A stretch of DNA of 64,000 nucleotides. It comes from Maribacter luteus. GTDB lineage: Bacteria; Bacteroidota; Bacteroidia; Flavobacteriales; Flavobacteriaceae. Below the pieces are notes generated by a model that did no database searches, was not told where the DNA came from, and saw nothing but the letters and a program-made list of their open reading frames with translations. The DNA is taken from positions 62,001 through 126,000 of the forward strand of contig NZ_WKJH01000006.1 of assembly GCF_009674825.1 (NCBI RefSeq). Reading direction: 5' to 3'. This document shows positions 33,262 to 49,291 of the stretch, piece by piece; position 1 is the first letter of the stretch; each line of letters begins with the position of its first letter. The position numbers and the translations under genes are program-made.

Positions 33262-33304
33262 CGAAGTTATTTTAAGTTAAAATTTCTTGAAATGAGCTAT
33301 ATCA
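33262..33304 (-). promoter_or_regulatory. Candidate promoter of the HMA-like gene: degenerate palindrome plus -7 box
   Basis: TGAG-CTAT-ATCA at 33293-33304 (one mismatch to TGAY-N4-RTCA), and minus-strand box TAACTTCG at 33262-33269 (one mismatch to TAnnTTTG). Centre-to-centre spacing is exactly 33 bp. The palindrome centre is 55 bp before the start codon. Confidence 0.55.
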
Positions 33305-33341
33305 TTAGTAGGCCGAAATTAATTCGACCTAAATAAAGGTA

Positions 33342-33384
33342 TGACCGTGGTCATTTAAGAAATGTATCATTACAAGTAAATTTG
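33342..33384 (+). promoter_or_regulatory. Island operator and -7 box of the mla operon
   Basis: Perfect palindrome ATGACCGTGGTCAT at 33341-33354 (core TGAC-CGTG-GTCA) and perfect -7 box TAAATTTG at 33377-33384, centre-to-centre 33 bp. The palindrome centre is 66 bp before the mlaE start. No -33 TTTG is needed if an activator occupies the palindrome. Confidence 0.7.
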
Positions 33385-33413
33385 ATAAGTTCCTTTTAAG
33401 AACATCAACTGAA

Positions 33414-34196
33414 ATGGCCTATGTACATCATACATCCGAAAAGCTAAAACAGTTCTTTATAGAAATAGGGGAGTTGTCCTATTTTGCCATTCGGTACTTT
33501 AAGGAATTTCTGAAACCGCCGTGGGAATTCAAAGAACTGCTGCGACAATGTTATCACATGGGAAACAGGTCGCTTGTTCTGGTTGGTGTAACCGGTTTTA
33601 TCATCGGTTTGGTGTTAACCTTGCAATCGAGGCCAACTTTAATGGAATTCGGTGCTGTTTCCTGGATGCCCAATATGGTGGGCATATCTATTGTTAGGGA
33701 AATAGGCCCGGTTATTACGGCCCTGATATGTGCCGGTCGAATTGCCTCTGGGATTGGGGCCGAATTAGGGTCAATGCGCGTAACAGAACAGATTGATGCC
33801 ATGGAAGTCTCAGGAACCAATCCCTTTAAATATTTGGTGGTAACACGAATAACGGCGACCACCTTGATGCTACCGTTATTGGTGATTTTTGGTGATATGG
33901 TTGCCCTATACGGTTCGGCTTTGGTAGAAAACCTTAAAGGTGACGTTTCTTTTCAGCTGTATTTCAATACGGTTTTCGATGCCTTGGAATTCGGGGATTT
34001 GATACCGGCAACCGTTAAGTCTTTTTTCTTTGGATTTACGATCGGTCTAGTGGGGTGTTACAAAGGGTATTATAGTAAAAAAGGAACGGCAGGGGTCGGT
34101 GTCGCGGCAAATACGGCAGTGGTGACCGCATCATTGTTGCTTTTCGTAGTGGATTTTATAGCAGTTTTCGTATCGGATATTTTTTATGATTTATGA
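33414..34196 (+). CDS. mlaE: MlaE-type ABC transporter permease
   Basis: 260 residues of the MlaE/TrnI permease family that moves phospholipids between the inner and outer membranes. An N-terminal amphipathic region is followed by five or so membrane segments. The family signature GPVITALICAGRIASGIGAELGSMRVTEQIDAMEVSG is present (about residues 99-135), as is the conserved C-terminal GCYKGYYSKKGTAGVGVAANTAVV. It is the first gene of an mlaE-mlaF-mlaD operon and follows a strong candidate activated promoter. Its end overlaps the ATPase gene by 11 bases. No mlaB or mlaC homolog is adjacent. Confidence 0.93.
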   Translation: MAYVHHTSEKLKQFFIEIGELSYFAIRYFKEFLKPPWEFKELLRQCYHMGNRSLVLVGVTGFIIGLVLTLQSRPTLMEFGAVSWMPNMVGISIVREIGPVITALICAGRIASGIGAELGSMRVTEQIDAMEVSGTNPFKYLVVTRITATTLMLPLLVIFGDMVALYGSALVENLKGDVSFQLYFNTVFDALEFGDLIPATVKSFFFGFTIGLVGCYKGYYSKKGTAGVGVAANTAVVTASLLLFVVDFIAVFVSDIFYDL

Positions 34197-34980
34197 TATG
34201 GACGAACAACATAACATTGCTAAGCAAAAAATGTCAAAGAATAAACTCGAAGCTGTCATAGAGATTCGGGATCTACGAAAGAGCTTTGGCGATAACCATG
34301 TCCTGAACGGGTTTTCAATGACGCTTTACAAGGGAGAGAACCTAGTGGTCATGGGAAAATCGGGGTCGGGAAAATCAGTGATGATCAAATGTTTGGTGGG
34401 GTTAATGTTGGCCGATAGCGGATTTCTTGCGGTTATGGGCAAGGAAATAAAAACTTTGGACCGAAAAACATTGGATGCCCTACGCTCGGATATCGGTTTT
34501 TTATTTCAAGGTAGTGCATTGTATGATTCCATGACCGTTCGGGAAAATTTGGAATTTCCGCTACGTAGGCATAAAGAAAAGTTGGGCAACATAAAAGATA
34601 CCCTGCCATTGGTGCATGAGGCTCTGGAAAATGTGGGGTTGGCGCATACTATGGATCTTATGCCATCTGAACTATCAGGAGGAATGAAAAGACGAGTGGC
34701 TTTGGCAAGGACATTGATCTTAAAACCAAAGATCATTTTGTATGATGAGCCAACCAGTGGGTTGGATCCCATAACCTCAAAAGAGATCATTCAACTGATG
34801 CGAAATATTCAGAAAATGTACGGCACTTCCTCATTGATCATTACACACGATGTGGATTGTGCTAGGGTAATATCGGAACGTATGGTGCTTTTGGTCGACG
34901 GGGTTAATTATGCGGAAGGTACTTTTGATGAATTATCAAAATCGACCGACCCAAAAGTAGAAGCGTTCTTTAAAAAGTAA
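34186..34980 (+). CDS. mlaF: MlaF-type ABC transporter ATPase
   Basis: Up to 264 residues. Walker A GKSGSGKS, Q-loop FLFQGSALYDSMTVRENL (the SALYDSMTV run is typical of Mla/Ttg2 ATPases), signature LSGGMKRR, Walker B IILYDEPTSGLDP and switch His in IITHDVD are all visible. The start is uncertain: ATG at 34186 overlaps mlaE, while ATGs at 34198 and 34231 are alternatives; the domain itself begins at about residue 22. It energises MlaE in lipid transport. Middle gene of the operon; mlaD begins 5 bases after its stop. Confidence 0.93.
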   Translation: MIYDMDEQHNIAKQKMSKNKLEAVIEIRDLRKSFGDNHVLNGFSMTLYKGENLVVMGKSGSGKSVMIKCLVGLMLADSGFLAVMGKEIKTLDRKTLDALRSDIGFLFQGSALYDSMTVRENLEFPLRRHKEKLGNIKDTLPLVHEALENVGLAHTMDLMPSELSGGMKRRVALARTLILKPKIILYDEPTSGLDPITSKEIIQLMRNIQKMYGTSSLIITHDVDCARVISERMVLLVDGVNYAEGTFDELSKSTDPKVEAFFKK

Positions 34981-34984
34981 AGTC

Positions 34985-35965
34985 ATGGCAAAAACAACGT
35001 TGGAAAATTTAAGATTGGGAATTTTTGTGGTAATAGGCACGGCCTTACTGGTTGTTGCTGCCTACTTAATCGGAAACCGACAAAATATGTTCGGTAAAAC
35101 CTTTACGATCAGTGCTGTTTTCAATAATGCAAACGGACTCCAAATAGGGAATAATGTTCGTTTTTCAGGTATTCAAGTTGGTACGGTAAAGGATATTGAA
35201 ATGTTGAACGATACGACCATACAGGTTTATATGGTCATTGATGAAAAGGTGCAACGTCATATTAAAAAAGATGCCGTGGCCACTATTGGTTCCGATGGGT
35301 TGGTGGGTAGTATGATCCTTAATATATTACCGGGAAAAGGTGTGGGGCCTTCCATTGTGGAAGGGGATGAACTAAGGTCTTACAGTCGAATTGCCACCCA
35401 GGACATGTTGAGTACTCTGAATACTACCAATGAGAATGCGGCAATATTAACCTCAAATCTGGTACATGTAACCCAAGCCTTGACCAAAGGAAAAGGTACA
35501 ATGGGGCTATTATTGAACGATACACTTTTGGCGACCGATTTAACACGAACTATTGCCCACTTAAAAAATGCCAGTCGTAATGCCGATCAAACTATTGGAA
35601 AATTGAACGTTTTATTAGATCAGGTCGATATGGAACATAGTGTGGCCGGTTTACTTTTAACCGATTCGATCCATGGGGGCAAAGTTCAAAATGCACTTAC
35701 CAATTTAGAAAAGTCCAGTGAGGAGATGGCCAAAATGATCAAGAATTTAAACCTGGTCGTTGATGATGTAAAAGATGGGAAAGGTACGGTGCATTATTTG
35801 GCCAATGATACCATTCTGGTAAATACTTTGGATAATACTATAAAGAATATAGAAGAAGGATCCATTAAATTCAATGAGAATATGGAGGCTTTGAAACATA
35901 ATTTCCTTACCAGAAGGTATTTTAAGAAGTTGGAGAGAAAAGAACAAGAGATTAAAAAAGACTAA
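34985..35965 (+). CDS. mlaD: MCE domain (MlaD-type) substrate-binding protein
   Basis: 326 residues: an N-terminal membrane anchor (about 9-28, LGIFVVIGTALLVVAAYL), then one MCE domain (about 38-118, FNNANGLQIGNNVRFSGIQVGTV), then a long helical C-terminal region with repeated LLxD/LLNDT elements. Such MCE proteins form hexameric rings that conduct lipids through the periplasm; the long helical tail can form a tunnel or needle. The tail here is longer than that of E. coli MlaD. Last gene of the mla operon; DUF302 follows after 44 bases on the same strand. Confidence 0.93.
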   Translation: MAKTTLENLRLGIFVVIGTALLVVAAYLIGNRQNMFGKTFTISAVFNNANGLQIGNNVRFSGIQVGTVKDIEMLNDTTIQVYMVIDEKVQRHIKKDAVATIGSDGLVGSMILNILPGKGVGPSIVEGDELRSYSRIATQDMLSTLNTTNENAAILTSNLVHVTQALTKGKGTMGLLLNDTLLATDLTRTIAHLKNASRNADQTIGKLNVLLDQVDMEHSVAGLLLTDSIHGGKVQNALTNLEKSSEEMAKMIKNLNLVVDDVKDGKGTVHYLANDTILVNTLDNTIKNIEEGSIKFNENMEALKHNFLTRRYFKKLERKEQEIKKD

Positions 35966-36008
35966 ATATCATGGAACAAAACCCATGAGTACATAAAAAC
36001 AAGGACAA

Positions 36009-36398
36009 ATGGACTATTACTTTTGTAAAACGCTATCTGATACTACTTTTGAGACTGCAATAGAAAAAATAACGAATGCTTTGAAAGAAGAAGGATTTGG
36101 TGTACTTACCGAAATTGATCTTAAAGCAACCTTTAAGAAGAAACTGAATGTTGATTTTCCGTATTATAGGATTTTGGGAGCTTGTAATCCCGAATTTGCC
36201 CATAAGGCCCTATTGGCTGAAAATAAAATAGGGACCATGCTCCCTTGCAATGTTATTGTACGGGAAACAGAGAAGGGGGACATAGAAGTTGCCGCGGTAG
36301 ATCCCATTGCTTCAATGACAGGGGTCGGAAATTTTGATTTGGCGACTATCGCAGAAGAGGTAAGGGGTAAACTTAAAAAAGCAGTAGAAGGTTTATAG
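36009..36398 (+). CDS. DUF302 domain protein
   Basis: 129 residues of the DUF302 family: TTFETAIEKITNALKEEGFGVLTEID is the N-terminal signature, and LGACNPEFAHKALLAENKIGTMLPCNVIV with two cysteines is the conserved middle. No signal peptide is seen, so it is probably cytosolic. The family is often encoded beside redox or stress genes, but its activity is unknown. It follows mlaD after 44 bases with no terminator between them and is likely part of the same transcript. No palindrome precedes it. Confidence 0.88.
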   Translation: MDYYFCKTLSDTTFETAIEKITNALKEEGFGVLTEIDLKATFKKKLNVDFPYYRILGACNPEFAHKALLAENKIGTMLPCNVIVRETEKGDIEVAAVDPIASMTGVGNFDLATIAEEVRGKLKKAVEGL

Positions 36399-36443
36399 TA
36401 CGCGTATTTCGGGAATTGCAGTTTTGCTGGTTTTGTTCTGCCC

Positions 36444-36486
36444 TGATTAAGATCATTACAGGGTTATGGTGTTGGTCGTATTTTTA
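36444..36486 (+). promoter_or_regulatory. Island operator and -7 box of the slipin gene
   Basis: TGAT-TAAG-ATCA at 36444-36455 and box TATTTTTA (one mismatch) at 36479-36486. Centre spacing 33 bp; the palindrome centre is 85 bp before the start. Confidence 0.6.
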
Positions 36487-36534
36487 GAGAATCGCAAGTT
36501 GATTGCGTACCTATCTTAACTTAAAACTAAAATC

Positions 36535-37278
36535 ATGAATCCACTGTATCTGTTTTCGATTATCATCATACTATTTCTATTGGCCGGTATCCGAATAGTC
36601 TATGAATACAAAAGGGCGTTGAAATTCCGATTCGGGAAGTATGTAAGAACGCTTCAACCTGGTTTTCGATGGATCATTCCACTTGTCGAGACCATTCAGG
36701 TGGTCGATGTCAGGGTCATAACCATTAATATCGTTTCTCAAGAAGTTATGACAGAGGACAATGTGCCATGTAGTATCGACGGAGTAGTGTTTTTTAAAAT
36801 AAGCGATCCCGAGAAAGCCGTTTTGGAAGTAGAGGAGTATAATTTTGCCATTACCCAACTTGCCCAAGCGGCATTGCGTGATGTATGTGGTAAGGTAGAA
36901 CTGGACACGATTCTCTCCAAAAGGGAAGAAATGGGCAAGAACATCAAATCTATCGTTGAGACCGAAACCCATCATTGGGGCATTGAAATCATAGATGTAA
37001 AGATCAAGGATATTCAATTACCCGAGAATATGAGACGAATGATGGCCAACCAGGCCGAGGCTGAACGATCCAGAAGGGCAAGGGTCATTTTGGCGGAAGC
37101 AGAAAACCAAGCGGCGGCAAAACTTTTGGAAGCCGGACTTCAAATCGATAAATCACCCTCAGCCATAAAACTAAGGTTGTACCAAACGTTATCGAATATT
37201 GCGGCGGAGAAAAATTCTACCATACTTTTTCCATTTCCTGAAGAAGTCTTACCTAGGCCAAAGAAAAATGAAAATTAA
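36535..37278 (+). CDS. Slipin (SPFH/band 7, stomatin-like) protein
   Basis: 247 residues: N-terminal membrane hairpin (about 3-20), then an SPFH/band 7 domain with YEYKRALKFRFGKYVRTLQPGFRWIIP, VDVRVITINIVSQEVMTEDNVPCSIDGVVFFKI and a coiled-coil AEAERSRRARVILAEAENQAAAKLLEA. These are the signatures of prokaryotic stomatins, which scaffold membrane microdomains; many pair with a NfeD protease, but no nfeD gene is adjacent. It is preceded by a candidate activated promoter of the island type and is monocistronic, facing the convergent lipoprotein gene. Confidence 0.92.
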   Translation: MNPLYLFSIIIILFLLAGIRIVYEYKRALKFRFGKYVRTLQPGFRWIIPLVETIQVVDVRVITINIVSQEVMTEDNVPCSIDGVVFFKISDPEKAVLEVEEYNFAITQLAQAALRDVCGKVELDTILSKREEMGKNIKSIVETETHHWGIEIIDVKIKDIQLPENMRRMMANQAEAERSRRARVILAEAENQAAAKLLEAGLQIDKSPSAIKLRLYQTLSNIAAEKNSTILFPFPEEVLPRPKKNEN

Positions 37279-37359
37279 GGTTTGGCCTTTTATTCCATTG
37301 GTTCATCCGATAGAAAGATTATAGGTCGTGGGTAAATTTTGGTCAATTGGTAACAAGAG

Positions 37360-37869
37360 CTATTCTTTTATACTAACGGTGATCGATGCCCCTTTTTCAT
37401 CCCCAAGAACCATGACCGAAACGTTTTCTTTTTGAGCGGCAAAATGAATTCCGGAGCCAGCTATTGTTGTGAACTTGATAGTGAAGTCTTTTTCTTCCAA
37501 TTTATCCTTGTACGCTTTAATATTGTCTTGGTTTACATCTTCAAATAGGATTGTCCAGCTTTTACCGCCAATCATTTCCTGGGTGTTTACTACTTCAATT
37601 TTGCCCGAGGTGAATTCGGGTACATGGCTAGGGATGTCATTTGGCCAATTTTGGGCAGTGGCATCGGTAGTGAAGGTTCCTTCATCGGTTTTAATTACGA
37701 TTTTTTCATCATCCAAATCTACATCTGCGTCATTGCCAATAGATTTTTCGATAAGCTTTTCCTGGGTTTTTTCCACAGCTTGCTTGCAGGAAAGGAATAG
37801 GACCATTGTTGATAAAAGAAAGGCCATGGATACCAATACCTTTGTTGAATTTGATAACGGATTTTTCAT
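37360..37869 (-). CDS. Hypothetical lipoprotein
   Basis: 169 residues with a lipoprotein signal (LLSTMVLFLSC, Cys28). The mature part has an acidic segment (DADVDLDDEKIVIKTDEG) followed by a small alpha/beta domain with PNDIPSHVPEFTSGKIE. No family is recognised. No island palindrome is seen upstream of its start at 37869. It converges on the slipin gene. Confidence 0.7.
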   Translation of the reverse strand: MKNPLSNSTKVLVSMAFLLSTMVLFLSCKQAVEKTQEKLIEKSIGNDADVDLDDEKIVIKTDEGTFTTDATAQNWPNDIPSHVPEFTSGKIEVVNTQEMIGGKSWTILFEDVNQDNIKAYKDKLEEKDFTIKFTTIAGSGIHFAAQKENVSVMVLGDEKGASITVSIKE

Positions 37870-38132
37870 GAATATGATTTTATATGAATGTGTGTTTTTT
37901 AAAGGAGATAATAGCTAAAGCGACTTTGTAGTTGGATCTTGCTTGTGTTCTTAAGTAATATTTTAAGGTATTCCAGGAAAAGCGGTTTTAAGAATTCATG
38001 ATTGGGTATGATCTGGTGTAAGCAATACACCCAAAAAACTTATTAGCTAAAATTAATTGGGTGCTTTGCTGTTTTTTTGTATACGTAAAAGCATGGTTTC
38101 AAAAGAATTAATGCTCTTGTTAAAGGGCTTGA

Positions 38133-38774
38133 CTACAAGTAGGAATTTAATTTTTTGGTTTCCCATTTGTTGTCTTTCGTTTTGAATATCAGAAGGTCAT
38201 CACCGAACAATTTGGCCCTTAATTCGGGAGTTTCATATCTTCTTTTGGCGGTCAAAATGTGTTCCCTTTCACATATGGGCCATATTATTTCACCGTTTGT
38301 ATTTACGACTACTTCTGTAAAGATATAATCGATCACACCTAGTTTAATTTCATTTTGACCTTGGAACGCCTCCCGAACATAGATACCGACCGCATTTTTA
38401 TGATCGAATTCCGTGATATTCAGGTACTCGGGTTCTATTACGGTTTTACCCGTTTTATCAATGAATCCATAGAAAGGGATATCGTTCACTTTTAGTTTTT
38501 GGATCATGCATAAGCCGTTTTTGAATTTCGGATATCTAATACCCAAAACACCCTCTTTGCTTGCGTCGGCATTGGTATTCCAGACCAAGTCATCCCTGAA
38601 GTCGATGACAAGTTTGGCACTTTCGTCGATAAAGCCCCATTGGTGGCCTATACGAACTGCTGCCATACCTTCACTAAATGGGGCTATTTCATCGTATGAG
38701 GTGTTTTCTGTCTGCGCGTGTACTGCTATGGGAAAGACCAATAGCAATATAAGAAGTGAGTTAATTATTTTCAT
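38133..38774 (-). CDS. WG-repeat protein with signal peptide
   Basis: 213 residues: signal peptide (about 1-20, LVFPIAVHAQ) and two recognisable WG repeats (HQWGFIDESAKLVIDF and FYGFIDKTGKTVIEPEY), the motif of the WG beta-propeller-like family. The C-terminal 70 residues are not repeat-like. Secreted or periplasmic; the repeats usually mediate binding. It starts 26 bases after the DUF2267 gene on the same strand, so it is likely transcribed from the palindrome-bearing promoter at 39307. Confidence 0.82.
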   Translation of the reverse strand: MKIINSLLILLLVFPIAVHAQTENTSYDEIAPFSEGMAAVRIGHQWGFIDESAKLVIDFRDDLVWNTNADASKEGVLGIRYPKFKNGLCMIQKLKVNDIPFYGFIDKTGKTVIEPEYLNITEFDHKNAVGIYVREAFQGQNEIKLGVIDYIFTEVVVNTNGEIIWPICEREHILTAKRRYETPELRAKLFGDDLLIFKTKDNKWETKKLNSYL

Positions 38775-38800
38775 GTTGTTATATTTTAAAATTCGAATTC

Positions 38801-39253
38801 TTAGAACATGATATTGGAATAGATCATGGTTTTCAAATCTTTGGGCAATCCGTCCCTAATATCTTCCATTTCACCTAGTGATATATATTTTCTCAGTAAG
38901 ATAAAAGTGGTGTCTATATACTGTTCCGCAACATCATCGCTATATTCAAAATCGTTGATGGCCGAAACACCATCATGTTTTCTGACCAAATCAATGAAAT
39001 CGGCCATTTTTTTTATTTTGGGACGTTCCTTTCTAATCGTCCACCCATTTACGTAGACGGCTTTTAGGAACATAGGGAATTGCGCTATAAGCTGTAAAGA
39101 TTCCTCGACAGGGATAATATCCCGTAAGGCATGTAAAATTGAAGATAGTATTCTACCTGCTTTATCGGTGTCTTGGCCAAGGTTCATTTCCTTGGTATAG
39201 TTTTTAAGGAAGGTGTTGCCTTCTACTGCGAATTGATTGAAATTTAGTGCCAT
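38801..39253 (-). CDS. DUF2267 family protein
   Basis: 150 residues from the ATG at 39253 (MALNFNQFA); ATG at 39259 is the alternative. The two halves are related: each contains a helix pair like GRILSSILHALRDIIPVEESLQLIAQFPMFL, the DUF2267 repeat. Family members are frequently found with universal stress proteins and Hsp20 in low-oxygen or stationary-phase clusters, which is the context here. No catalytic motif is visible. A perfect palindrome lies 59 bp upstream. Confidence 0.88.
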   Translation of the reverse strand: MALNFNQFAVEGNTFLKNYTKEMNLGQDTDKAGRILSSILHALRDIIPVEESLQLIAQFPMFLKAVYVNGWTIRKERPKIKKMADFIDLVRKHDGVSAINDFEYSDDVAEQYIDTTFILLRKYISLGEMEDIRDGLPKDLKTMIYSNIMF

Positions 39254-39306
39254 GATCATGCTTTTTAGGATTGCATAAAGTTGGCAACTAATAGATTAAT
39301 CGGAAA

Positions 39307-39318
39307 TGACCTAGGTCA
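39307..39318 (-). promoter_or_regulatory. Island operator upstream of DUF2267
   Basis: Palindrome AATGACCTAGGTCATT (core TGAC-CTAG-GTCA), centred 59 bp before the ATG at 39253. The -7 box at the expected position is weak (best: CAACTTTA at 39277-39284, two mismatches). Confidence 0.6.
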
Positions 39319-39364
39319 TTCCAGATGGGTTATTTTAAATCGGAATTATTTGGTTTTGTGGTGT

Positions 39365-40063
39365 TTAAGTAATGTTCAGGGCTATCTCTATCATTTCGTT
39401 GAATGAGGATTCCCTTTCTGCCGCCGTTGACTGCTCCCCGGTAACCAAGGAATCTGAAATGGTTAGTATCGCCAGGGCCTTTACATTGTGTTTTGCCGCA
39501 AGGGTATAAAGACCGGCCGCCTCCATTTCAACACAAAGAACACCATATTTGGCCCATAGTTTATAGGCTTCCTTGTCATCTTCATAAAACTCATCTGCAG
39601 ATAGGACATTACCTGCTTTGATCTGGATATTCTTTTTTCGGGCATATAAGCAGGCGTTCATGAATAGTTCAAAATCGGCAGTGGGTGAGTAATCGGCATT
39701 TACGAAACGGGAATTGTTTATGCCCGATGTGGTAGAAGCCGCCATGGCCAAAACGATGTCACGGATCTTGATGTCTTTTTGGTAAGAACCTGCAGAGCCT
39801 ACCCTGATCAAGTTTTTGGCTCCATATTCACTGATCAGTTCATTGTAATAGATCATGGCCGATGGTATGCCCATACCACTACCTTGAACAGAGATTTTCT
39901 TGCCTTTATATAAGCCGGTGTAACCTAACATTCCGCGCACTTGGTTATAGCATATCGCATCATCCAAGAACGTTTCCGCAATCCATTTGGCACGTAAGGG
40001 ATCGCCTGGCATTAATACTGTTTCTGCGATGTCTCCCTTTAATGCTTCGATGTGTACGCTCAT
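39365..40063 (-). CDS. deoD: Purine-nucleoside phosphorylase
   Basis: 232 residues of the hexameric DeoD family: phosphorolysis of purine (deoxy)nucleosides to base and (deoxy)ribose-1-phosphate. Recognisable are the N-terminal MSVHIEALKGDIAETVLMPGDPLRAKWIAE, the LIRVGSAGSYQ phosphate-site segment and the active-site CVEMEAAGLYTLAAKH with the Glu and Met that bind the ribose, plus the DSLVTGE loop. It lies 11 bases after deoC on the same strand, forming a nucleoside-salvage pair. Complete and of normal length. Confidence 0.95.
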   Translation of the reverse strand: MSVHIEALKGDIAETVLMPGDPLRAKWIAETFLDDAICYNQVRGMLGYTGLYKGKKISVQGSGMGIPSAMIYYNELISEYGAKNLIRVGSAGSYQKDIKIRDIVLAMAASTTSGINNSRFVNADYSPTADFELFMNACLYARKKNIQIKAGNVLSADEFYEDDKEAYKLWAKYGVLCVEMEAAGLYTLAAKHNVKALAILTISDSLVTGEQSTAAERESSFNEMIEIALNIT

Positions 40064-40074
40064 ATTCGATATTA

Positions 40075-40719: not shown

Positions 40720-40767
40720 GGGAATGAAATGTTTTTTTAATCTGATGGCTCAAATGGAATCCAACCC

Positions 40768-40811
40768 CAAAGATACAAATACAACCATGATGTTTTCTAT
40801 GATATTGGTCA
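40768..40811 (-). promoter_or_regulatory. Island operator and -7 box of deoC-deoD
   Basis: TGAT-ATTG-GTCA at 40800-40811 and a perfect minus-strand box TATCTTTG at 40768-40775; centre spacing 34 bp. The palindrome centre is 86 bp before the deoC start. Confidence 0.62.
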
Positions 40812-40834
40812 TTAAAATTCTTTATGTGATTGGC

Positions 40835-40877
40835 TGATTCATATCATGGACAAACTTTGATTTAGGCTTTACTTTTG
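40835..40877 (+). promoter_or_regulatory. Island operator and -7 box of the usp pair
   Basis: TGAT-TCAT-ATCA at 40835-40846 and a perfect box TACTTTTG at 40870-40877; centre spacing exactly 33 bp. The palindrome centre is 58 bp before the ATG at 40899. Confidence 0.7.
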
Positions 40878-40898
40878 GTTATAATAAAGGTGTTTTTT

Positions 40899-42607: not shown

Positions 42608-42746
42608 AATTGTTGGTTTCATGTAGGTTTAATTTACTTCTTGTTAAAAAAGGTAATATTATTCTATTGATTTATGGGATAAAGTAATGAAATTCGTTAG
42701 TTTACATAATAAATAAGGTAAATTTCTTTAAAGGTTAGAGAAATCT

Positions 42747-42754
42747 TAAATTTG
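42747..42754 (+). promoter_or_regulatory. Candidate -7 box TAAATTTG of pta-ackA
   Basis: A perfect TAnnTTTG box 22 bases before the ATG at 42776. No TGAY-N4-RTCA palindrome sits 33 bp upstream of its centre, and no clear -33 TTTG is seen. Confidence 0.5.
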
Positions 42755-42775
42755 CCATAAATTTTATCATTGCTA

Positions 42776-44866
42776 ATGAGCAAAGCGATTTATATTGCCA
42801 CTACGGAGCCAAATAGTGGTAAATCAGTAGTTTCCTTAGGTTTAATGCAAATGCTTCTAGGGAAAGCGGCAAAAGTAGGTTATTTCAGACCTATTATAGA
42901 TGACTATCCCAACGGGGCCAAAGACAATCATATTACAACGGTGATTTCCTATTTTAATATTCCCATGGAATATGAGGATGCCTATGCCCTTACCCGGAGT
43001 CAGGTAAATGAAAAGAACAATAAGAACAAAGAAGACGAAGTTCTCGATACGATCATTGAGAAGTACAAGGCAATTGAAAAACGCTTTGATTTCGTTCTCG
43101 TTGAAGGTACCGATTTTTCCAGTGAAGGTTCGATCACCGAATGGGATATAAACGTTCTTATGGCCAAAAACCTTGGTATACCCACCATCATTTTGGCGAG
43201 CGGCGTTGGTAAGACCTTAGGTAAGTTGGTGAACAATCTTTATATGGCCTATGATTCTTTTAAGGATAAAGGTGTCGAGGTACTTATGGTGGTTGCCAAT
43301 AAGGTGCAACCAGAAAATATTGAGATCGTCAGAAAAGGCCTTAAAGCCCAATTGCCGGATAATGTTCTGATAGGAGTGGTTCCTATGAACCCTGTTTTAA
43401 GAAACCCGACCATAAAGGAAATTGTTGAGGTGTTGGATGGGGAAGTGCTTTTCGGCGAAGAATATTTAAATAACCAAGCCGGTCATTTTGGGGTCGGGGC
43501 CATGCAGCTTCGAAACTATTTGACCCATTTGAAAAAAGATGGACTGGTAATTACACCAGGGGATAGGGCAGATATAATCCTTGGGGCGCTACAGGCAAAC
43601 CTATCGGCGAATTATCCGAATGTTTCTGGTGTTATATTAACCGGAAACTTGGTGCCAGAGGATTCAATAATTAAATTGATCGAAGGTTTATCGGATATCG
43701 TTCCTATAGTTTCGGTAAACCAAGGTACATTTTCGATTACCAACAAGATAGGTGCCATTAAACCACGTATCTATGCGGAGAATTTACAGAAAATAACCGC
43801 TTCTATCAATGATTTTTCCAAACACGTTCCCGAAGAAGAGCTTGCTGAAAGGTTGATAACCTTTAAGGCAAAGGGTATTTCTCCCCGAATGTTCCAATAC
43901 AACTTGTTGAGCAGGGCAAAATCGGATATTAAACATATTGTACTGGCAGAAGGTCTTGATGAACGTATATTGAATGCCACAAAACTTTTGGTAGATTCAA
44001 ATGCCGTTAAGATCACCTTGATTGGGGATCCAGAAAAGATAAAAGAGAAGGTTTCCCAAATGGACCTGGATTTGGATTTAAAAAAGGTCAATATAGAAGA
44101 TCCGACTTCATCAGAACATTTTAATGAATATGCAGAAGAGCTTTATAGGCTTAGAAAGCATAAAGGGGTTAATTTGGCCATGGCAGAGGATTTAATGGAA
44201 GATGTTTCCCACTTTGGCACCATGATGGTGCATAAAGGCCATGCCGATGGTATGGTGTCAGGAGCCGTGCATACCACAAAACAAACCATTCTTCCTGCAT
44301 TGCAGTTGATCAAGACCCGCCCGGATGTATCGGTCGTTTCTTCGGTCTTTTTCATGTGTTTGGAGAATCGGGTAACAGTATATGGGGATTGCGCCATTAA
44401 CCCTAACCCTACCGCGGAACAATTGGCAGAGATTGCAATTTCCTCCGCAGAGACCAGTACTGCTTTCGGTATAGAACCGAAGATTGCCATGCTTTCATAT
44501 TCATCAGGGGATTCAGGTGTAGGGGAAGATGTGGATCGTGTGCGTAGGGCTACCAAAATAGCGAAAGAAAGACATCCTGAACTAATACTTGAAGGTCCTA
44601 TTCAGTATGATGCGGCAGTTGATGCCAAGGTAGGTAAGGTTAAATTACCGGACTCCAAGGTAGCAGGTGAAGCCACCGTATTTATTTTTCCAGATCTGAA
44701 TACAGGTAACAATACGTATAAAGCCGTTCAAAGGGAAACAGGGGCATTGGCCATTGGTCCGGTTTTACAAGGACTCAATAAACCTGTAAACGATTTGAGT
44801 AGGGGATGCACCGTAGACGATATTTTCAATACGGTGATCATAACGGCCATACAAGCACAAGATTAA
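42776..44866 (+). CDS. pta: Phosphate acetyltransferase
   Basis: 696 residues from the ATG at 42776 (MSKAIYIATTEPNSGKS); ATG at 42770 would add two residues. It is the long form: an N-terminal P-loop CobB/DUF-like domain (TEPNSGKS), a middle DRTGG domain (about 210-325) and a C-terminal phosphotransacetylase domain (about 370-690) with VHTTKQTILPALQLIKTRP and SYSSGDSGVGEDVDRV. It interconverts acetyl-CoA and acetyl phosphate. It forms an operon with ackA (17-base gap), giving substrate-level ATP and acetate. Confidence 0.95.
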   Translation: MSKAIYIATTEPNSGKSVVSLGLMQMLLGKAAKVGYFRPIIDDYPNGAKDNHITTVISYFNIPMEYEDAYALTRSQVNEKNNKNKEDEVLDTIIEKYKAIEKRFDFVLVEGTDFSSEGSITEWDINVLMAKNLGIPTIILASGVGKTLGKLVNNLYMAYDSFKDKGVEVLMVVANKVQPENIEIVRKGLKAQLPDNVLIGVVPMNPVLRNPTIKEIVEVLDGEVLFGEEYLNNQAGHFGVGAMQLRNYLTHLKKDGLVITPGDRADIILGALQANLSANYPNVSGVILTGNLVPEDSIIKLIEGLSDIVPIVSVNQGTFSITNKIGAIKPRIYAENLQKITASINDFSKHVPEEELAERLITFKAKGISPRMFQYNLLSRAKSDIKHIVLAEGLDERILNATKLLVDSNAVKITLIGDPEKIKEKVSQMDLDLDLKKVNIEDPTSSEHFNEYAEELYRLRKHKGVNLAMAEDLMEDVSHFGTMMVHKGHADGMVSGAVHTTKQTILPALQLIKTRPDVSVVSSVFFMCLENRVTVYGDCAINPNPTAEQLAEIAISSAETSTAFGIEPKIAMLSYSSGDSGVGEDVDRVRRATKIAKERHPELILEGPIQYDAAVDAKVGKVKLPDSKVAGEATVFIFPDLNTGNNTYKAVQRETGALAIGPVLQGLNKPVNDLSRGCTVDDIFNTVIITAIQAQD

Positions 44867-44883
44867 TCCAGTAAAAAATAATA

Positions 44884-46071
44884 ATGAAAGTTTTAATATT
44901 GAATTCGGGAAGTTCATCGATTAAATTTCAATTGATTGAAATGCCCGAAGAAAGAGTGATCTGTTCTGGACTTGTGGAAAGAATCGGGTTGAACGATGCC
45001 GTAATTACCTATAAAACGGATGTGGATAAATATACGCAGACCCTAGCCATTGAGAACCACCATGTTGGTTTGGAAATGGTCGCTGCATATATCATGGATC
45101 CAGAAAAAGGGGTTGTAAAGGATGCGAGTGAAATTGAAGCCGTAGGCCATAGGGTGGTTCACGGTGGCGATGCGTTCTCGGATACCACACTCATAACCTC
45201 AGAAGTAAAAGATAAAATAAAGCAATTCGAGAATTTGGCACCGTTGCACAATCCCCATAACTTAAAGGGTATTGAAATTGCAGAGGATATTTTTCCAAAA
45301 GCGAAACAGATTGCGGTTTTTGATACGGCCTTTTTCCAGACCATTCCCGTAATGGCCCGTAAATATGCCATACCAAATAAATTCTATTCGGAGCATGATA
45401 TAAAAATGTACGGCTTTCATGGTACCAGTCATAAGTATGTGAGTGAAAAAGCCAAAGAATATTTAAAATCTTCTACACGAAATATCATTTCCGTTCACCT
45501 CGGTAATGGCTGCAGTATTACCGCATTGAAAGATGGCAAAAGTATTGATCATAGCCTCGGATTCGCACCGAGTAACGGTCTGATCATGGGGTCACGAAGT
45601 GGTGATATAGACCATTCCTTGATTTTTTACTTGGTAAATGACCTAGGGTACGATTTAGATACGGTAAATAAAATGCTTATCAATGAGAGTGGTATGTTGG
45701 GCCTTACCGGTTATAGTGACCTAAGGGATATTGAAGCCGAGGCAGAGAAAGGAAATAAAGAATGTCAACTGGCACTGGATATGAATGTTTACCGAATCAA
45801 AAAATATATTGGTTCATATGTAGCGGCTCTTAACGGTTTGGATGCCATTATATTCACTGCTGGTATAGGTGAGAATTCTGACTATATCAGAGGCCATGTG
45901 TGTAAGGATATGGATTATTTCGGCATTGCGTTGGATGAAACCAAAAATGGGGTAAGATCAAAGGAAATTCGTGAAATAAACTTGCCTACTTCAAAGGTTA
46001 AGGTTTTGGTTATACCTACCAATGAAGAACTTGAGATTGCCAAACAGAGTTATGAACTACTCCATTCTTAA
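44884..46071 (+). CDS. ackA: Acetate kinase
   Basis: 395 residues. Converts acetyl phosphate and ADP to acetate and ATP. Signatures are the N-terminal VLILNSGSSSIKFQLIE, HRVVHGGDAF, the phosphate-binding VHLGNGCSITALKDGKSIDHSLGFAPSNGLIMGSRSGDID, and FTAGIGENS near the end. Length is standard for the ASKHA family enzyme. Cotranscribed with pta, and followed by a bidirectional terminator. Confidence 0.96.
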   Translation: MKVLILNSGSSSIKFQLIEMPEERVICSGLVERIGLNDAVITYKTDVDKYTQTLAIENHHVGLEMVAAYIMDPEKGVVKDASEIEAVGHRVVHGGDAFSDTTLITSEVKDKIKQFENLAPLHNPHNLKGIEIAEDIFPKAKQIAVFDTAFFQTIPVMARKYAIPNKFYSEHDIKMYGFHGTSHKYVSEKAKEYLKSSTRNIISVHLGNGCSITALKDGKSIDHSLGFAPSNGLIMGSRSGDIDHSLIFYLVNDLGYDLDTVNKMLINESGMLGLTGYSDLRDIEAEAEKGNKECQLALDMNVYRIKKYIGSYVAALNGLDAIIFTAGIGENSDYIRGHVCKDMDYFGIALDETKNGVRSKEIREINLPTSKVKVLVIPTNEELEIAKQSYELLHS

Positions 46072-46102
46072 GTAGCTTTATTTTTTATTCCGTAAAATAC
46101 CT

Positions 46103-46147
46103 AAATACCCCCATGAAGGTTCAATTACTTCCTTTGGGGGTATTTTT
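46103..46147. terminator. Bidirectional terminator overlapping a stop codon
   Basis: Stem AATACCCCC / GGGGGTATT (46104-46112 and 46136-46144) with inner pairs AAGG / CCTT, flanked by T and A runs. It ends ackA on the plus strand. For the minus-strand gene ending at 46121, the stop codon lies inside the hairpin. Confidence 0.85.
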
Positions 46148-46489
46148 ATTGCTTCTTCCACGGTTGGCATTGTGCTCTTCGTGATATTTACGAATATTCT
46201 CTTCTTGATAATTTTTTACGCGTTCGTACCTGTGACGTGTCAAGTCTATGTTCCTATATCTGGGAGGTAGTTCCCTACGCCTCACCCAGACTCCACCATC
46301 CAAGTACAGGTATGTTTGGGCCGATAGGTCATAATAAACGCTGAATTCAGGAAAATAAACATAACGTACGACCTCTAAACGATTGGGGTAAAACCAATTG
46401 GGGGGACGATAATTTGGCCTTGATGAAATTACTACAGGGCCACAACTGAACATAAACAACAGTCCTAACAAAATGCTTAACTTTTTCAT
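46121..46489 (-). CDS. Small hypothetical lipoprotein rich in Arg and Tyr
   Basis: 122 residues with a lipoprotein signal (LLGLLFMFSC, Cys16). The mature part is rich in Tyr, Arg and Pro (RPNYRPPNWFYPNRLEVVRYVYFPEFSVYYDL) and ends in a charged, low-complexity tail (KYHEEHNANRGRSNKN). I see no named domain. The 3' end of the gene is contained in the bidirectional terminator. A palindrome centred 56 bp before its start links it to the stress island. Function unknown. Confidence 0.75.
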   Translation of the reverse strand: MKKLSILLGLLFMFSCGPVVISSRPNYRPPNWFYPNRLEVVRYVYFPEFSVYYDLSAQTYLYLDGGVWVRRRELPPRYRNIDLTRHRYERVKNYQEENIRKYHEEHNANRGRSNKNTPKGSN

Positions 46490-46508
46490 GATATTTACTT
46501 TTCTACCT

Positions 46509-46551
46509 TAAAATAAATCCATGTAGGGTTAAGAAGTAATGATCTACATCA
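46509..46551 (-). promoter_or_regulatory. Island operator of the small lipoprotein gene
   Basis: TGAT-CTAC-ATCA at 46540-46551, palindromic outward as AATGAT..ATCATT. The candidate -7 box at the 33-bp spacing, TTATTTTA (46509-46516), has two mismatches. Confidence 0.55.
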
Positions 46552-46599
46552 TTTAGATGTAAAATCCCATGAGCAGTGGGCCAAAGAAGCCTGTCAGAA

Positions 46600-46642
46600 T
46601 GATTTAAATCATTCCGATTTGATAAATGGAGCCCTACATTCG
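46600..46642 (+). promoter_or_regulatory. Island operator and -7 box of the YtxH cassette
   Basis: Eighteen-base perfect palindrome GAATGATTTAAATCATTC around TGAT-TTAA-ATCA (46600-46611) and box TACATTCG (one mismatch) at 46635-46642; centre spacing exactly 33 bp. The palindrome centre is 74 bp before the ATG at 46680. Confidence 0.68.
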
Positions 46643-46679
46643 TTATCGTAATTCAATATTCACCTTAAATATTTTAATC

Positions 46680-47009
46680 ATGACAAACGATAGTGGAAAC
46701 ATCATGTTGGCCTTATTGACAGGAGCTGCGATAGGAGCAGGGTTTGGAATACTTTATGCACCTGATAAGGGTACTAAAACCCGTGAGAAAATAAGAGAAA
46801 AAGCTTTGGATACCACACACGAAATTACCGAACGTGTTACCCATGCCAAAGACGAACTGACTAAAACCGCCAACGAGAAAAAGGTTGAGTTCGAACAAAA
46901 GTTAGAGGACACTTTATCCAATATGAGTTATAAGGCCGATGATATCATCGCGACCTTGGAACGTAAGTTAGAAGAATTGAAAAAGAAAAATGCACAACTT
47001 CAGAAATAA
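46680..47009 (+). CDS. YtxH domain protein (copy 1)
   Basis: 109 residues from the ATG at 46680 (MTNDSGNIML); a frame beginning at 46626 would overlap the -7 box. A glycine-zipper-like hydrophobic segment (about 10-28, LALLTGAAIGAGFGILYAPDKG) with the YtxH signature APDKGTKTREKI is followed by a charged coiled coil (about 35-108). Membrane-associated; general-stress proteins of this family have no known activity. First of a three-gene cassette repeated at 58051-58936. Confidence 0.88.
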   Translation: MTNDSGNIMLALLTGAAIGAGFGILYAPDKGTKTREKIREKALDTTHEITERVTHAKDELTKTANEKKVEFEQKLEDTLSNMSYKADDIIATLERKLEELKKKNAQLQK

Positions 47010-47015
47010 CGCCAT

Positions 47016-47360
47016 ATGGGTTTTGATGATTTAAAGAAGGATCTAATAGAGGCCGATGTCGATATTAGGTCCTATCTAGAGAACAGCGAGGAATATTTTA
47101 AACTGAAAATATTCAAGGCCCTAATGCGGGCGGTAACTTCATTTACCCATTTTTTTCTTTTAGGGGCCCTTTTGGTAATGGGTCTGTTTTTTATTTCCCT
47201 GGCACTTTCTTATGTAATCGGTGATGCAATGGGAAATACACTTTACGGCTTTTTCATTGTTGGTGCTTTTTATCTGGTGGTTGCTGTGTTATGCTATATT
47301 TTCAGGGGAAGGTTGGATCGCCCCTTACTCCGAAAATTCTCTAGATATTATTTTGAATAA
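47016..47360 (+). CDS. Holin-like membrane protein of the YtxH cassette (copy 1)
   Basis: 114 residues: an N-terminal soluble helix (about 1-35), two membrane segments (about 45-66 and 72-95) and a short basic C-terminus. It resembles the phage-holin-3-6/DUF1469 family, typically found downstream of YtxH genes. The two segments lie in SFTHFFLLGALLVMGLFFISLAL and GFFIVGAFYLVVAVLCYIF. It follows the YtxH gene after 6 bases. The counterpart at 58257-58604 shares length and layout. Confidence 0.85.
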   Translation: MGFDDLKKDLIEADVDIRSYLENSEEYFKLKIFKALMRAVTSFTHFFLLGALLVMGLFFISLALSYVIGDAMGNTLYGFFIVGAFYLVVAVLCYIFRGRLDRPLLRKFSRYYFE

Positions 47361-47466
47361 AGTCAAAAGTACCCTATTTGGTATTCGATACCCAAGAAGG
47401 TTTCAATAGCAGTGAAATGGGTATATCGATACGTTGTGGTAAATCATGAATTAAGAGTTTGAACAG

Positions 47467-47676
47467 ATGAAGGAATACAGGTCTTTTACAGAAATAGATA
47501 GGCAATTGAAAATATTGAACCTTCAAAGGGAGATAGATTTGGAACACTTTAAATTAAGCCTGAATCGATTTAGAACCGATTTATATCCTACACAATTATT
47601 GGGAGGGTTCAAAGGGATAATACAAAAAACCGTGATTACATTTATTTTACAGAAGTTGCGAAAAATAAGGCGGTAG
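47467..47676 (+). CDS. Small protein of the YtxH cassette (copy 1)
   Basis: 69 residues, basic, starting MKEYRSFTEIDRQLKILNLQ, with a helical body and a C-terminal amphipathic helix ending KLRKIRR. It resembles the DUF6327-type small proteins of Flavobacteriia. It has clear similarity in layout to the 68-residue protein at 58051-58257 (start, LNLxRxIxxE helix, hydrophobic end). It sits 106 bases after the holin-like gene on the same strand. Function unknown. Confidence 0.75.
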   Translation: MKEYRSFTEIDRQLKILNLQREIDLEHFKLSLNRFRTDLYPTQLLGGFKGIIQKTVITFILQKLRKIRR

Positions 47677-47803
47677 AAATTCGTCGGTTATCCATATACT
47701 CCCGCACCTTTCACAATTTAGATTCAAATACAATTGTAAAACTATTGACTTTCAATTTTTACAGCCGTATATTTAGTCTCTTGGCTAAATAAATGGTTAT
47801 GAT

Positions 47804-48604
47804 ATGAATATTGGATTGGCGCTATCCGGAGGCGGTGTTCGAGGGATTGCCCACATCGGCGTAATAAAAGCACTGGAAGAACACGGTATTTCTCCCAATT
47901 ATATTGCCGGGACAAGTGCTGGGGCCATAGTGGGAGCTCTATATGCCAATGGTAATTCCTGTAAAGAGATACTCGATTTCTTTAAATTGACCGATGTTTT
48001 CAGCATCAACAAATTTGCCCTTGGTAAACCCGGGATCATAGATACCGAGAAGTTGTATGATAGTTTTAAGGTGATTTTAGGGACCGATGATTTCCATGTC
48101 CTGAAAAGACATTTATATATAACCGCAACCAATATTATCGACGGTACGTTACATATTTTCAATGAAGGTGAGCTTATTAGACCAATTTTGGCCTCAGCCG
48201 CATTTCCTGCAGTATTTACTCCAATTCAAATAGGGGAAGACCATTTTATAGATGGCGGAACTTTGAATAATTTTCCCGTTGATCTGATTACGGAACAATG
48301 TGACAAGATCATTGGGGTTTACGTGAATCCGTTCGAGAAGAAAAACATTAAAGACCTAAAACATTCTTTCAGCGTTCTGGACAGGGCCTACAAGATACGA
48401 TCGGCCCATGATTCCATATCAAAGTTCAAAGATTGCAGTGTGGTGATCAGTCCTAGGGAATTGAAGAAAGTAGGTACTTTTACCGTAAGGGATATGGATG
48501 CCGTATTCAATTTGGGTTATGAGGCGGCCATGGCCAAATTAACCAAGGAAAAGGTAGCTGAGATTCTTGGGGAATGGAAAGATCCCCGTGATGGTAAAAA
48601 ATAA
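47804..48604 (+). CDS. Patatin-like phospholipase
   Basis: 266 residues of the bacterial patatin family (lipid acyl hydrolase). The oxyanion motif LSGGGVRGIAHIG (residues 7-19), the nucleophile Ser38 in GTSAG and the catalytic Asp150 in IDGG form the complete Ser-Asp dyad. No signal peptide is seen, so it probably acts in the cytosol or at the inner leaflet. No island palindrome was found upstream; only a lone TGAC half site is present. It converges on hsp20. Confidence 0.93.
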   Translation: MNIGLALSGGGVRGIAHIGVIKALEEHGISPNYIAGTSAGAIVGALYANGNSCKEILDFFKLTDVFSINKFALGKPGIIDTEKLYDSFKVILGTDDFHVLKRHLYITATNIIDGTLHIFNEGELIRPILASAAFPAVFTPIQIGEDHFIDGGTLNNFPVDLITEQCDKIIGVYVNPFEKKNIKDLKHSFSVLDRAYKIRSAHDSISKFKDCSVVISPRELKKVGTFTVRDMDAVFNLGYEAAMAKLTKEKVAEILGEWKDPRDGKK

Positions 48605-48606
48605 AA

Positions 48607-48659
48607 CCCCTAATCCCATTTACTATAATACATGGACGCTTTTAGATTGGGAAAAGGGG
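48607..48659. terminator. Weak hairpin between patatin and hsp20 genes
   Basis: Interrupted stem CCCC-taa-TCCCA / TGGGA-aaa-GGGG (48607-48618 and 48648-48659) with a 29-base loop, placed between two convergent stops. No clear T tract follows. Confidence 0.3.
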
Positions 48660-48682
48660 CGTGATAGAAACAATCGTTGAAA

Positions 48683-49150
48683 CTATCCTATTTCAACAAC
48701 TTTAGGTTTGTGTTTTTTGGCAACCTCCTTTTTGTCGAGTTTAAAGCTTAAAATACCATCATTGTATTTCGCTTTAATTTCTTCATCCTTCACATTCTCT
48801 GGTAATTGTAGTGATCTTTCGAAGGCATTGTAACTAAATTCCCGACGGGTATAATTATCTTTTTCTTCTTCGTCTTCGGAAGTTTTTTCCGCAGAAATGT
48901 TCAAACAGCCATCATCAATGGTAATATTGAAATCTTTTTTGTCAAAACCGGGCGCTGCCAGTTCTATTTCATAATGGCCTTTATTTTCCTTTATGTTAAG
49001 GGCTGGTTCCCCTTTTCTTCCATTCCAAAAATCATCATTTATTAATCCTTGGTTCCAAAATCCCTTGTCGAAAAAATCCTCCATATCAAAGAAATCAGAG
49101 GTAACTAGATTTCGAAAAGGTCTCTTTTTGTTGAATTTTACTAGTGACAT
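48683..49150 (-). CDS. Small heat shock protein, Hsp20 family
   Basis: 155 residues: variable N-terminal region, then an alpha-crystallin domain (about 50-145) with GHYEIELAAPGFDKKDFNITIDDGCLNISAE, the AFERSLQLPENV loop, and a C-terminal extension ending KPKVVEIG with the IxV-like element VVEI. It is an ATP-independent holdase that forms oligomers and binds unfolding proteins. A palindrome plus perfect -7 box precede it. Divergent from the sigma-like gene at 49333. Confidence 0.95.
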   Translation of the reverse strand: MSLVKFNKKRPFRNLVTSDFFDMEDFFDKGFWNQGLINDDFWNGRKGEPALNIKENKGHYEIELAAPGFDKKDFNITIDDGCLNISAEKTSEDEEEKDNYTRREFSYNAFERSLQLPENVKDEEIKAKYNDGILSFKLDKKEVAKKHKPKVVEIG

Positions 49151-49183
49151 AATACTTTTTTAGGTTAAACATTCATTTGAACA

Positions 49184-49226
49184 CAAAATTAATGGTGATA
49201 GGGAAGGTAAGGAATGATGTGGGTCA
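49184..49226 (-). promoter_or_regulatory. Island operator and -7 box of hsp20
   Basis: TGAT-GTGG-GTCA at 49215-49226 and a perfect minus-strand box TAATTTTG at 49184-49191; centre spacing exactly 33 bp. The palindrome centre is 70 bp before the start. Confidence 0.68.
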
Positions 49227-49248
49227 GTCGCACAAGGTTTTTCAATAC

Positions 49249-49291
49249 TGATCTTTATCATTTTATTCGGTGATAAATGATGGTAGATTTA
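49249..49291 (+). promoter_or_regulatory. Island operator and -7 box of the sigma-like gene
   Basis: TGAT-CTTT-ATCA at 49249-49260 and box TAGATTTA (one mismatch) at 49284-49291; centre spacing 33 bp. The palindrome centre is 78 bp before the ATG at 49333. Confidence 0.62.

Follow-up and report, generated by a model that had tools for sequence, protein, structure and literature searches.

What regulates a cluster of ten transcription units that share a palindrome upstream of their start codons, and which protein reads that palindrome? The cluster lies in a stretch of 64,000 nucleotides (nt) from Maribacter luteus (GCF_009674825.1, NZ_WKJH01000006.1:62,001-126,000; hereafter the window), where an original prediction had noted the motif TGAY-N4-RTCA before ten units, nine times in exact form and once with a mismatch. 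We verified all of these positions, and the observation of a palindromic regulon is confirmed in a stronger form than that in which it was first made. On the basis of comparative sequence analysis, the ten promoters are probably class II targets of the Crp/Fnr superfamily, with a protein that places a receiver (REC) domain ahead of a Crp-type activator (here REC-Crp) as the main activator of the window genes and an FNR-like protein acting on an overlapping set.

A palindrome at a fixed distance from the -7 box

The window contains 14 matches to TGAYN4RTCA, against 4.69 expected (100 shuffles, the largest of which gave 10), and nine of them are the exact operators; the tenth operator, at 33293, carries the mismatch. 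The distance from palindrome center to start codon, previously given as 55 to 86 bp, is 55.5 to 86.5 bp by our calculation, with 55.5 bp at the gene whose ATG is at 33243. In all ten promoters, a -7-like box of the TAnnTTTG type lies 33 bp from the palindrome center, or 34 bp in the case of deoC. The box scores reported earlier could be reproduced: all six defined positions match at 33 bp in the mla, usp, and hsp20 promoters and at 34 bp in that of deoC, and five of the six match at 33 bp in those of the 33243 gene, slipin, YtxH, and the sigma-like gene. The boxes of the DUF2267 and lipoprotein genes, which had been called weak, have four of six matches, yet their spacing is exactly 33 bp. With the box frequency taken from the same intergenic stretches, the probability that at least eight of the ten promoters would have a box with five or more matches at 33 or 34 bp comes to about 1e-11, in line with the earlier remark that chance is a poor explanation.

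The same arrangement recurs well beyond the window. The host genome has 375 palindromes versus 141 matches to the reversed pattern, and of its 45 pairs of palindrome and perfect box at 18 to 48 bp, 25 (three of them window promoters) are spaced at 33 bp, with 3 at 34 bp, 2 at 32 bp, and 0 to 3 at every other distance. Around REC-Crp genes (54 named neighborhoods), there are 131 perfect-box pairs at 33 bp, whereas no other spacing in the range of 18 to 48 bp has more than 5; with boxes of at least five matches, the corresponding numbers are 347 and at most 16. The 26 neighborhoods of FNR-like genes yield 15 perfect pairs at 33 bp and no more than 4 elsewhere. The enrichment in relatives that had been suggested as a check is likewise present, as 84 of 198 genomes from the phylum have a perfect pair at 33 bp. 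The counts range from 0 to 25 per genome and are highest in the family of the window, Flavobacteriaceae (25 in the host, 16 in a congener, and 20, 19, and 17 in three other members); genomes outside the class mostly have 0 or 1.

Of the eight other congeners with Pta, seven served for a comparison of orthologous promoters, the eighth having been left out on account of a short contig. Nine window genes have 42 orthologues in these congeners, of which 39 have an exact palindrome within 400 bp upstream, accompanied by a box at 33 or 34 bp with at least four matches in 38 and with at least five in 28. All three misses concern slipin, whose palindromes, where present, lie farther from the start codon than that of the window and are accompanied by a four-match box. 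Least secure of the ten is the operator at 33293, with its mismatch and with palindrome and box in only one of three congeneric orthologues. That the window sites are chance palindromes in AT-rich intergenic DNA, where single TGAYN4RTCA sites are expected about 5 times per 64 kb, is exceedingly improbable: it is contradicted by their retention at the orthologous promoters, by the fixed spacing in the host and its relatives, and by the reversed-pattern controls, and we rejected it on the spacing histograms of the host genome and the REC-Crp neighborhoods.

The half-sites form a TGA-N6-TCA dyad with the FNR/CRP-type spacing recognized in the original prediction. In class II activation by CRP and FNR, the dyad is centered at -41.5. 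Because its center is 33 bp upstream of that of the box, and the flavobacterial TAnnTTTG box sits at -12 to -5 (PMC9723704), the dyad studied here would be centered at -41.5. One palindromic regulon with the class II activator geometry proposed earlier is well supported by the fixed 33-bp spacing, with the start sites predicted from the position of the box. We propose that a Crp/Fnr dimer binds the extended operator AATGAY-N4-RTCATT, at the place that ordinary Bacteroidota promoters reserve for the -33 element, and brings RNA polymerase to the -7 box, whose position is read from the sequence, and that it would act as an activator rather than a repressor.

Table 1. Operators and -7-like boxes of the ten window promoters (positions in the window; spacing in bp between centers; orthologues, congeneric orthologues with the palindrome)
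Unit	Operator position	Strand	Operator	Box	Box position	Spacing	Orthologues
78-aa gene (33007-33243)	33293-33304	-	TGATATAGCTCA (one mismatch)	TAACTTCG	33262-33269	33	
mla operon	33342-33353	+	TGACCGTGGTCA	TAAATTTG	33377-33384	33	3/3
Slipin (Band 7)	36444-36455	+	TGATTAAGATCA	TATTTTTA	36479-36486	33	3/6 (within 400 bp)
DUF2267 gene	39307-39318	-	TGACCTAGGTCA	CAACTTTA (weak, 4/6)	39276-39283	33	5/5 (with 4/6 box)
deoC-deoD (names from the original prediction)	40800-40811	-	TGACCAATATCA	TATCTTTG	40768-40775	34	7/7 (box at 33 or 34 in 6)
usp pair	40835-40846	+	TGATTCATATCA	TACTTTTG	40870-40877	33	5/5
Small lipoprotein gene	46540-46551	-	TGATGTAGATCA	TTATTTTA (weak, 4/6)	46509-46516	33	3/3
YtxH cassette	46600-46611	+	TGATTTAAATCA	TACATTCG	46635-46642	33	5/5
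hsp20	49215-49226	-	TGACCCACATCA	TAATTTTG	49184-49191	33	3/3
Sigma-like gene (49333-50034)	49249-49260	+	TGATCTTTATCA	TAGATTTA	49284-49291	33	5/5

Among the products of these units, MlaE is assigned by NCBIfam and MlaD by Pfam. The label HMA-like, attached earlier to the 78-aa protein, finds no Pfam match, and a Pfam search with the small lipoprotein was likewise without a match. The sigma-like protein has just a weak region 4 match below the cut-off. The protein encoded after YtxH (47016-47360) matches the Holin-X family (PF07332). A ferritin-like (Dps-type) gene at 50412-50903 adjoins the cluster and has no exact operator upstream, and a PAS histidine kinase gene at 52443-55007, flanked by AraC-type regulator genes (51178-52209 and 55625-56185), has no exact operator nearby.

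Three candidate regulators and their neighborhoods

The original prediction looked to a single CRP/FNR-family gene. The operator is indeed of the Crp/Fnr type, but three candidates share the same recognition-helix residues: a search of the host genome with the HTH_Crp_2 profile returned seven places, five of them above the cut-off, and E and R are common to an FNR-like protein, REC-Crp1, and REC-Crp2. The gene for the FNR-like protein (C15:367618-368316) stands beside cbb3 oxidase genes. REC-Crp1 (C15, 445 kb) and REC-Crp2 (C6, 346 kb) combine a receiver, a cyclic nucleotide monophosphate (cNMP)-like domain, and a Crp helix-turn-helix (HTH) domain; PF00027 (cNMP-like) and PF13545 (HTH_Crp) score above the Pfam cut-off, and in REC-Crp2 the receiver and Crp portions were recognized by alignment with REC-Crp1. 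A PAS histidine kinase, in one case a PAS/GAF kinase, is encoded near each of the two host fusions, and in 70 of 88 loci a kinase gene precedes REC-Crp in the same orientation, no more than 2.5 kb away. Receiver residues D9, D52, and K104 are conserved in at least 90% of 19 aligned rows, which include the receiverless FNR-like protein, and the HTH residues E318 and R322 are conserved in 19/19. With a phosphorylatable aspartate, an acidic residue, a lysine, and a nearby kinase, REC-Crp is predicted to be a response regulator of a two-component system. The cyclic AMP (cAMP)-contact residues of CRP are the Glu and Arg of its GE...R segment; upon alignment of REC-Crp1 with Mycobacterium tuberculosis CRP (3h3u), the former is replaced by Q and the latter is not retained, and we rejected a cAMP-type CRP for REC-Crp1 on these grounds. 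Because the receiver residues are conserved and the cAMP-contact residues are lost, phosphorylation of D52, and not cAMP or an iron-sulfur (Fe-S) cluster, would set DNA binding by REC-Crp.

The FNR-like protein has Fnr as its best NCBIfam match, at 103.7 bits and hence below the cut-off of 228. Its conserved cysteines comprise an N-terminal CxxC motif (9 of 11 aligned sequences) together with C58 and C111 (at least 90%), an arrangement that differs from that of Escherichia coli FNR and that could hold an Fe-S cluster. Relatives of REC-Crp were found in Maribacter, Arenibacter, and other genera, with up to 85% identity, and REC-Crp2 is present in 11/11 congeners searched; genomes without the FNR-like protein include G053 and G130.

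A second operator cluster surrounds REC-Crp1, with operators before Usp (universal stress protein) genes, hemN, and the genes for PfkB and an M50-CBS peptidase and, further, at the start of an FtsH cassette, before the kinase gene itself, and before Hsp20. REC-Crp2 lies in an operator island of its own (C6:340000-352000, L041) that includes two Usp-looking genes, a thioredoxin gene, a PAS kinase gene, and small genes. Elsewhere in the host genome, the operator precedes genes for cbb3 oxidase subunit I/II, the heavy-metal P-type ATPase of the cbb3 cluster, pyruvate-formate lyase, pyruvate phosphate dikinase, NadA, an S30AE ribosome-hibernation-type protein, ScdA, an ArsR-type regulator, a TonB protein, and an old-yellow-enzyme-type reductase. 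Downstream of the window, an FG-GAP/ASPIC-UnbV gene (L044, 16214-18022; host site C27:142073) has a perfect operator and box.

The neighborhoods of the two kinds of regulator gene differ sharply and divide labor between them. CcoI is encoded in 18/26 FNR-like loci versus 4/34 REC-Crp loci, whereas the kinase (31/34 versus 0/26), Usp (15/34 versus 3/26), and Hsp20 (7/34 versus 0/26) are found chiefly or solely with REC-Crp. No such enrichment was seen in these two sets of loci for PfkB, FtsH, Dps, and others. In the 54 named REC-Crp loci of relatives, operator-bearing promoters of window gene families belong to Hsp20 (34 loci), YtxH (29), patatin (19), and Usp (14). The kinase promoter has an operator of its own in 20 of these 54 loci, most commonly with a GGAT, CGAT, CAAT, or AAAT core, which suggests feedback or input from FNR. 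These kinase-promoter cores (L039:13147 and its relatives) are mostly NRAT-like, unlike the CTAn cores before Hsp20.

Core bases and the choice among regulators

The four core bases offer a statistical means of telling the candidates apart. An AWWT core is found in 10/14 sites at FNR-only loci, in 2/32 sites at REC-Crp loci outside the family, and in 0/9 exact window operators. The FNR-only set comprises 13 of the 26 FNR-like loci, selected from genomes without a full-length REC-Crp, its 14 sites being derived from seven loci, all in the family of the window; the outside-family set comprises 30 of the 88 REC-Crp loci, including four (L146, L148, L152, and L153) whose titles give no family. Per-genome counts were made in the 49 class genomes among the 198. 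Sites with an NTAN core average 9.9 in the 12 family genomes with REC-Crp versus 2.0 in the 7 without it, all of which have the FNR-like protein (p=0.008). AWWT sites average 5.28 in class genomes with the FNR-like protein versus 0.83 in those without it (p=2e-5), presence being scored at E <= 1e-40, so that one genome (G088, 1e-35) counts as lacking it; within the family, where just 3 genomes lack the FNR-like protein, the association is not significant (p=0.08). The Hsp20 promoters point the same way as the NTAN counts. Hsp20 was sought in 19 genomes and is present in 15, and the combination of operator and box (five or more matches) precedes it in 5/8 genomes with REC-Crp (6/17 genes) versus 0/7 without (p=0.026), the latter being five genomes of the window's family and two from another family of the order.

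On the basis of these observations, we favor a kinase-fed REC-Crp fusion as the likely main activator of the window genes. The FNR identity implied by the half-site spacing in the original prediction holds insofar as an FNR-like protein is present, but the window cores, the neighborhoods, and the phyletic distribution fit REC-Crp better, with overlap between the two. The FNR-like protein would bind the same half-sites, prefer the AWWT core, and share part of the regulon.

Several observations weigh against this assignment. Only 3/9 window operators have the NTAN core, and the 337 operators at REC-Crp loci of the family include 42 with AWWT and 153 with NTAN. Outside the family, no significant difference in NTAN counts is seen between genomes with and without REC-Crp (1.95 versus 1.10, p=0.22), and all of these p values are rough because the compared genomes are related by descent. 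The core of the sigma-like promoter, CTTT in the window, is AATT or ATAT in 4/5 orthologues; a clean NTAN/AWWT split had to be rejected, as cores drift among orthologues and loci, and the core preference is statistical only. Neither HemN nor YtxH is enriched near REC-Crp (34 loci) relative to FNR-like genes (26 loci), and slipin is found near neither. Three REC-Crp genomes have Hsp20 with no operator and box before it (G025, G053, and G130), and two others (G088 and G154) of the ten REC-Crp genomes searched gave no Hsp20 match. Finally, REC-Crp1 is missing in three congeners (G202, G207, and G134) in which the orthologous operators persist, and it therefore cannot be the only activator; we rejected it in that role.

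Two other explanations were weighed. In one, the FNR-like protein would be the principal activator of all of the promoters and REC-Crp would be minor or limited to its own operons. This protein would read the same half-sites with the same E and R, its conserved cysteines could carry an Fe-S cluster, Fnr is its best NCBIfam match despite the subthreshold score, clusters of sites are found around its gene and the cbb3 genes, and operators persist in congeners without REC-Crp1. We nevertheless regard this explanation as unlikely, given that the core preferred by the FNR-like protein is absent from the exact window operators, that NTAN sites become scarce in family genomes that have this protein and lack REC-Crp, and that none of the seven Hsp20-bearing genomes without REC-Crp has the Hsp20 operator. 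In the other, two or three regulators would share the operators about equally, with the cores merely tuning affinity, so that assignment to a single protein would be meaningless. The identical half-sites and the drift of the sigma-like promoters between core types are consistent with this, as is the mean number of strict sites, which is 12.9 in genomes with both regulators (11 genomes), 4.8 with the FNR-like protein alone (14 genomes), and 3.7 with REC-Crp alone (21 genomes). The sharp difference between the neighborhoods, with cbb3 genes on one side and kinase, Usp, and Hsp20 on the other, and the finding of Hsp20 operators solely alongside REC-Crp argue to the contrary and make equal sharing distinctly improbable.

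With REC-Crp as the main activator, the signal would probably be oxygen or redox, and REC-Crp together with the FNR-like protein may switch cells to a low-oxygen, low-growth state resembling hypoxia or dormancy. The predicted program would include cbb3 oxidase, anaerobic heme synthesis, pyruvate-formate lyase, universal stress proteins, Hsp20, a ribosome-hibernation-type protein, and envelope maintenance.

Known systems and tandem dyads

The predicted regulon shares with the class II systems of FNR, Anr, and FixK the TGA-N6-TCA dyad, its probable center at -41.5, the recognition residues E and R, and the predicted targets cbb3 oxidase, HemN, and pyruvate-formate lyase. It differs in the Bacteroidota TAnnTTTG box, in window cores that are not FNR-like, in the receiver domain of the likely activator, and in the tandem 22-bp dyads found outside the family (see below). 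In the rhizobial FixLJ-FixK cascade, a PAS kinase acts through a Crp/Fnr protein on low-oxygen expression of cbb3-type genes. A PAS kinase, a Crp/Fnr protein, and cbb3-type genes are likewise combined here, but the receiver and the Crp/Fnr DNA-binding parts reside in one polypeptide; no search for a separate FixJ-type step was made. The mycobacterial dormancy regulon is controlled by DosS/DosR, in which DosR, a protein with a NarL-type HTH, uses another operator. The REC-Crp1 cluster, with several Usp genes, Hsp20/alpha-crystallin, PfkB, an M50-CBS peptidase, and a cation P-type ATPase, resembles the DosR regulon in gene content, although the regulator HTH here is of the Crp type and not of the NarL/DosR type. 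Within the same phylum, the Crp-superfamily regulator BT4338 (Cur/MalR) of Bacteroides, which we compared by linked function alone, is tied to carbohydrate use (PMC8510549). PMC9723704 reports that cbb3 oxidase rises under oxygen limitation in Flavobacterium psychrophilum. A literature search of titles and the beginnings of abstracts, with thin coverage of subscription journals, returned no account of this operator or of a Bacteroidota REC-Crp, which is weak evidence of novelty.

In our judgment, low-oxygen sensing and survival are poorly mapped in the aerobic flavobacteria, which are major marine bacteria. The analysis yields a sharp operator model, namely, a dyad at -41.5 combined with TAnnTTTG, together with a predicted regulon and an example of a receiver domain placed ahead of a Crp-type activator. 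It also points to two rival regulator families whose core preferences can be distinguished, for which genomes with just one regulator provide natural tests.

Outside the family, the regulator may often use two dyads 22 bp apart. In the 30 outside-family REC-Crp loci, pairs of TGA-N6-TCA dyads were tallied at distances of 8 to 60 bp: 35 pairs are 22 bp apart, 4 are 23 bp apart, and no other distance accounts for more than 2. Of the 32 sites there whose box is spaced at 33 bp, 13 are preceded by a second, exact dyad at 22 bp and 3 by one at 23 bp. As judged from the box, the two dyads would be centered at -41.5 and -63.5 (e.g., in loci L058, L059, and L054). Tandem dyads with a box fragment were found in 30/198 phylum genomes, versus 2 for the reversed control. 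Among class genomes outside the family, they are present in 20/20 with REC-Crp and in 3/10 without it, the latter ten including two from another family of the order (f2); outside the class, 5/149 genomes have one each. The three genomes with tandem dyads and no full-length REC-Crp (G017, G111, and G150, in the last of which they lie beside the FNR-like gene) count against a tie to REC-Crp, and with two 22-bp pairs in FNR-only loci they led us to reject tandem dyads as an exclusive mark of this protein. We looked for tandem dyads in the window and rejected them there, as the scan found none and each promoter has a single well-placed dyad.

More speculatively, a Bacteroidota family of phosphorylation-gated kinase and REC-Crp pairs might run a DosR-like dormancy program parallel to FNR. 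Over much of the class, dimers would bind as adjacent pairs, one at -41.5 and the other two helical turns away at -63.5, joined via their receivers, and in Flavobacteriaceae the arrangement would be mostly reduced to a single dyad. We hold this view tentatively, as a possibility short of an even chance; if true, it would represent a two-component system with a class II/III Crp activator as its output stage. Within the family, tandem dyads occur in just two of 19 genomes (G025 and G174), both REC-Crp positive and with the sites within about 10 kb of REC-Crp. In both of these genomes (contig C28 in each), the tandem operators stand beside REC-Crp and Hsp20, as if on an island from another family.

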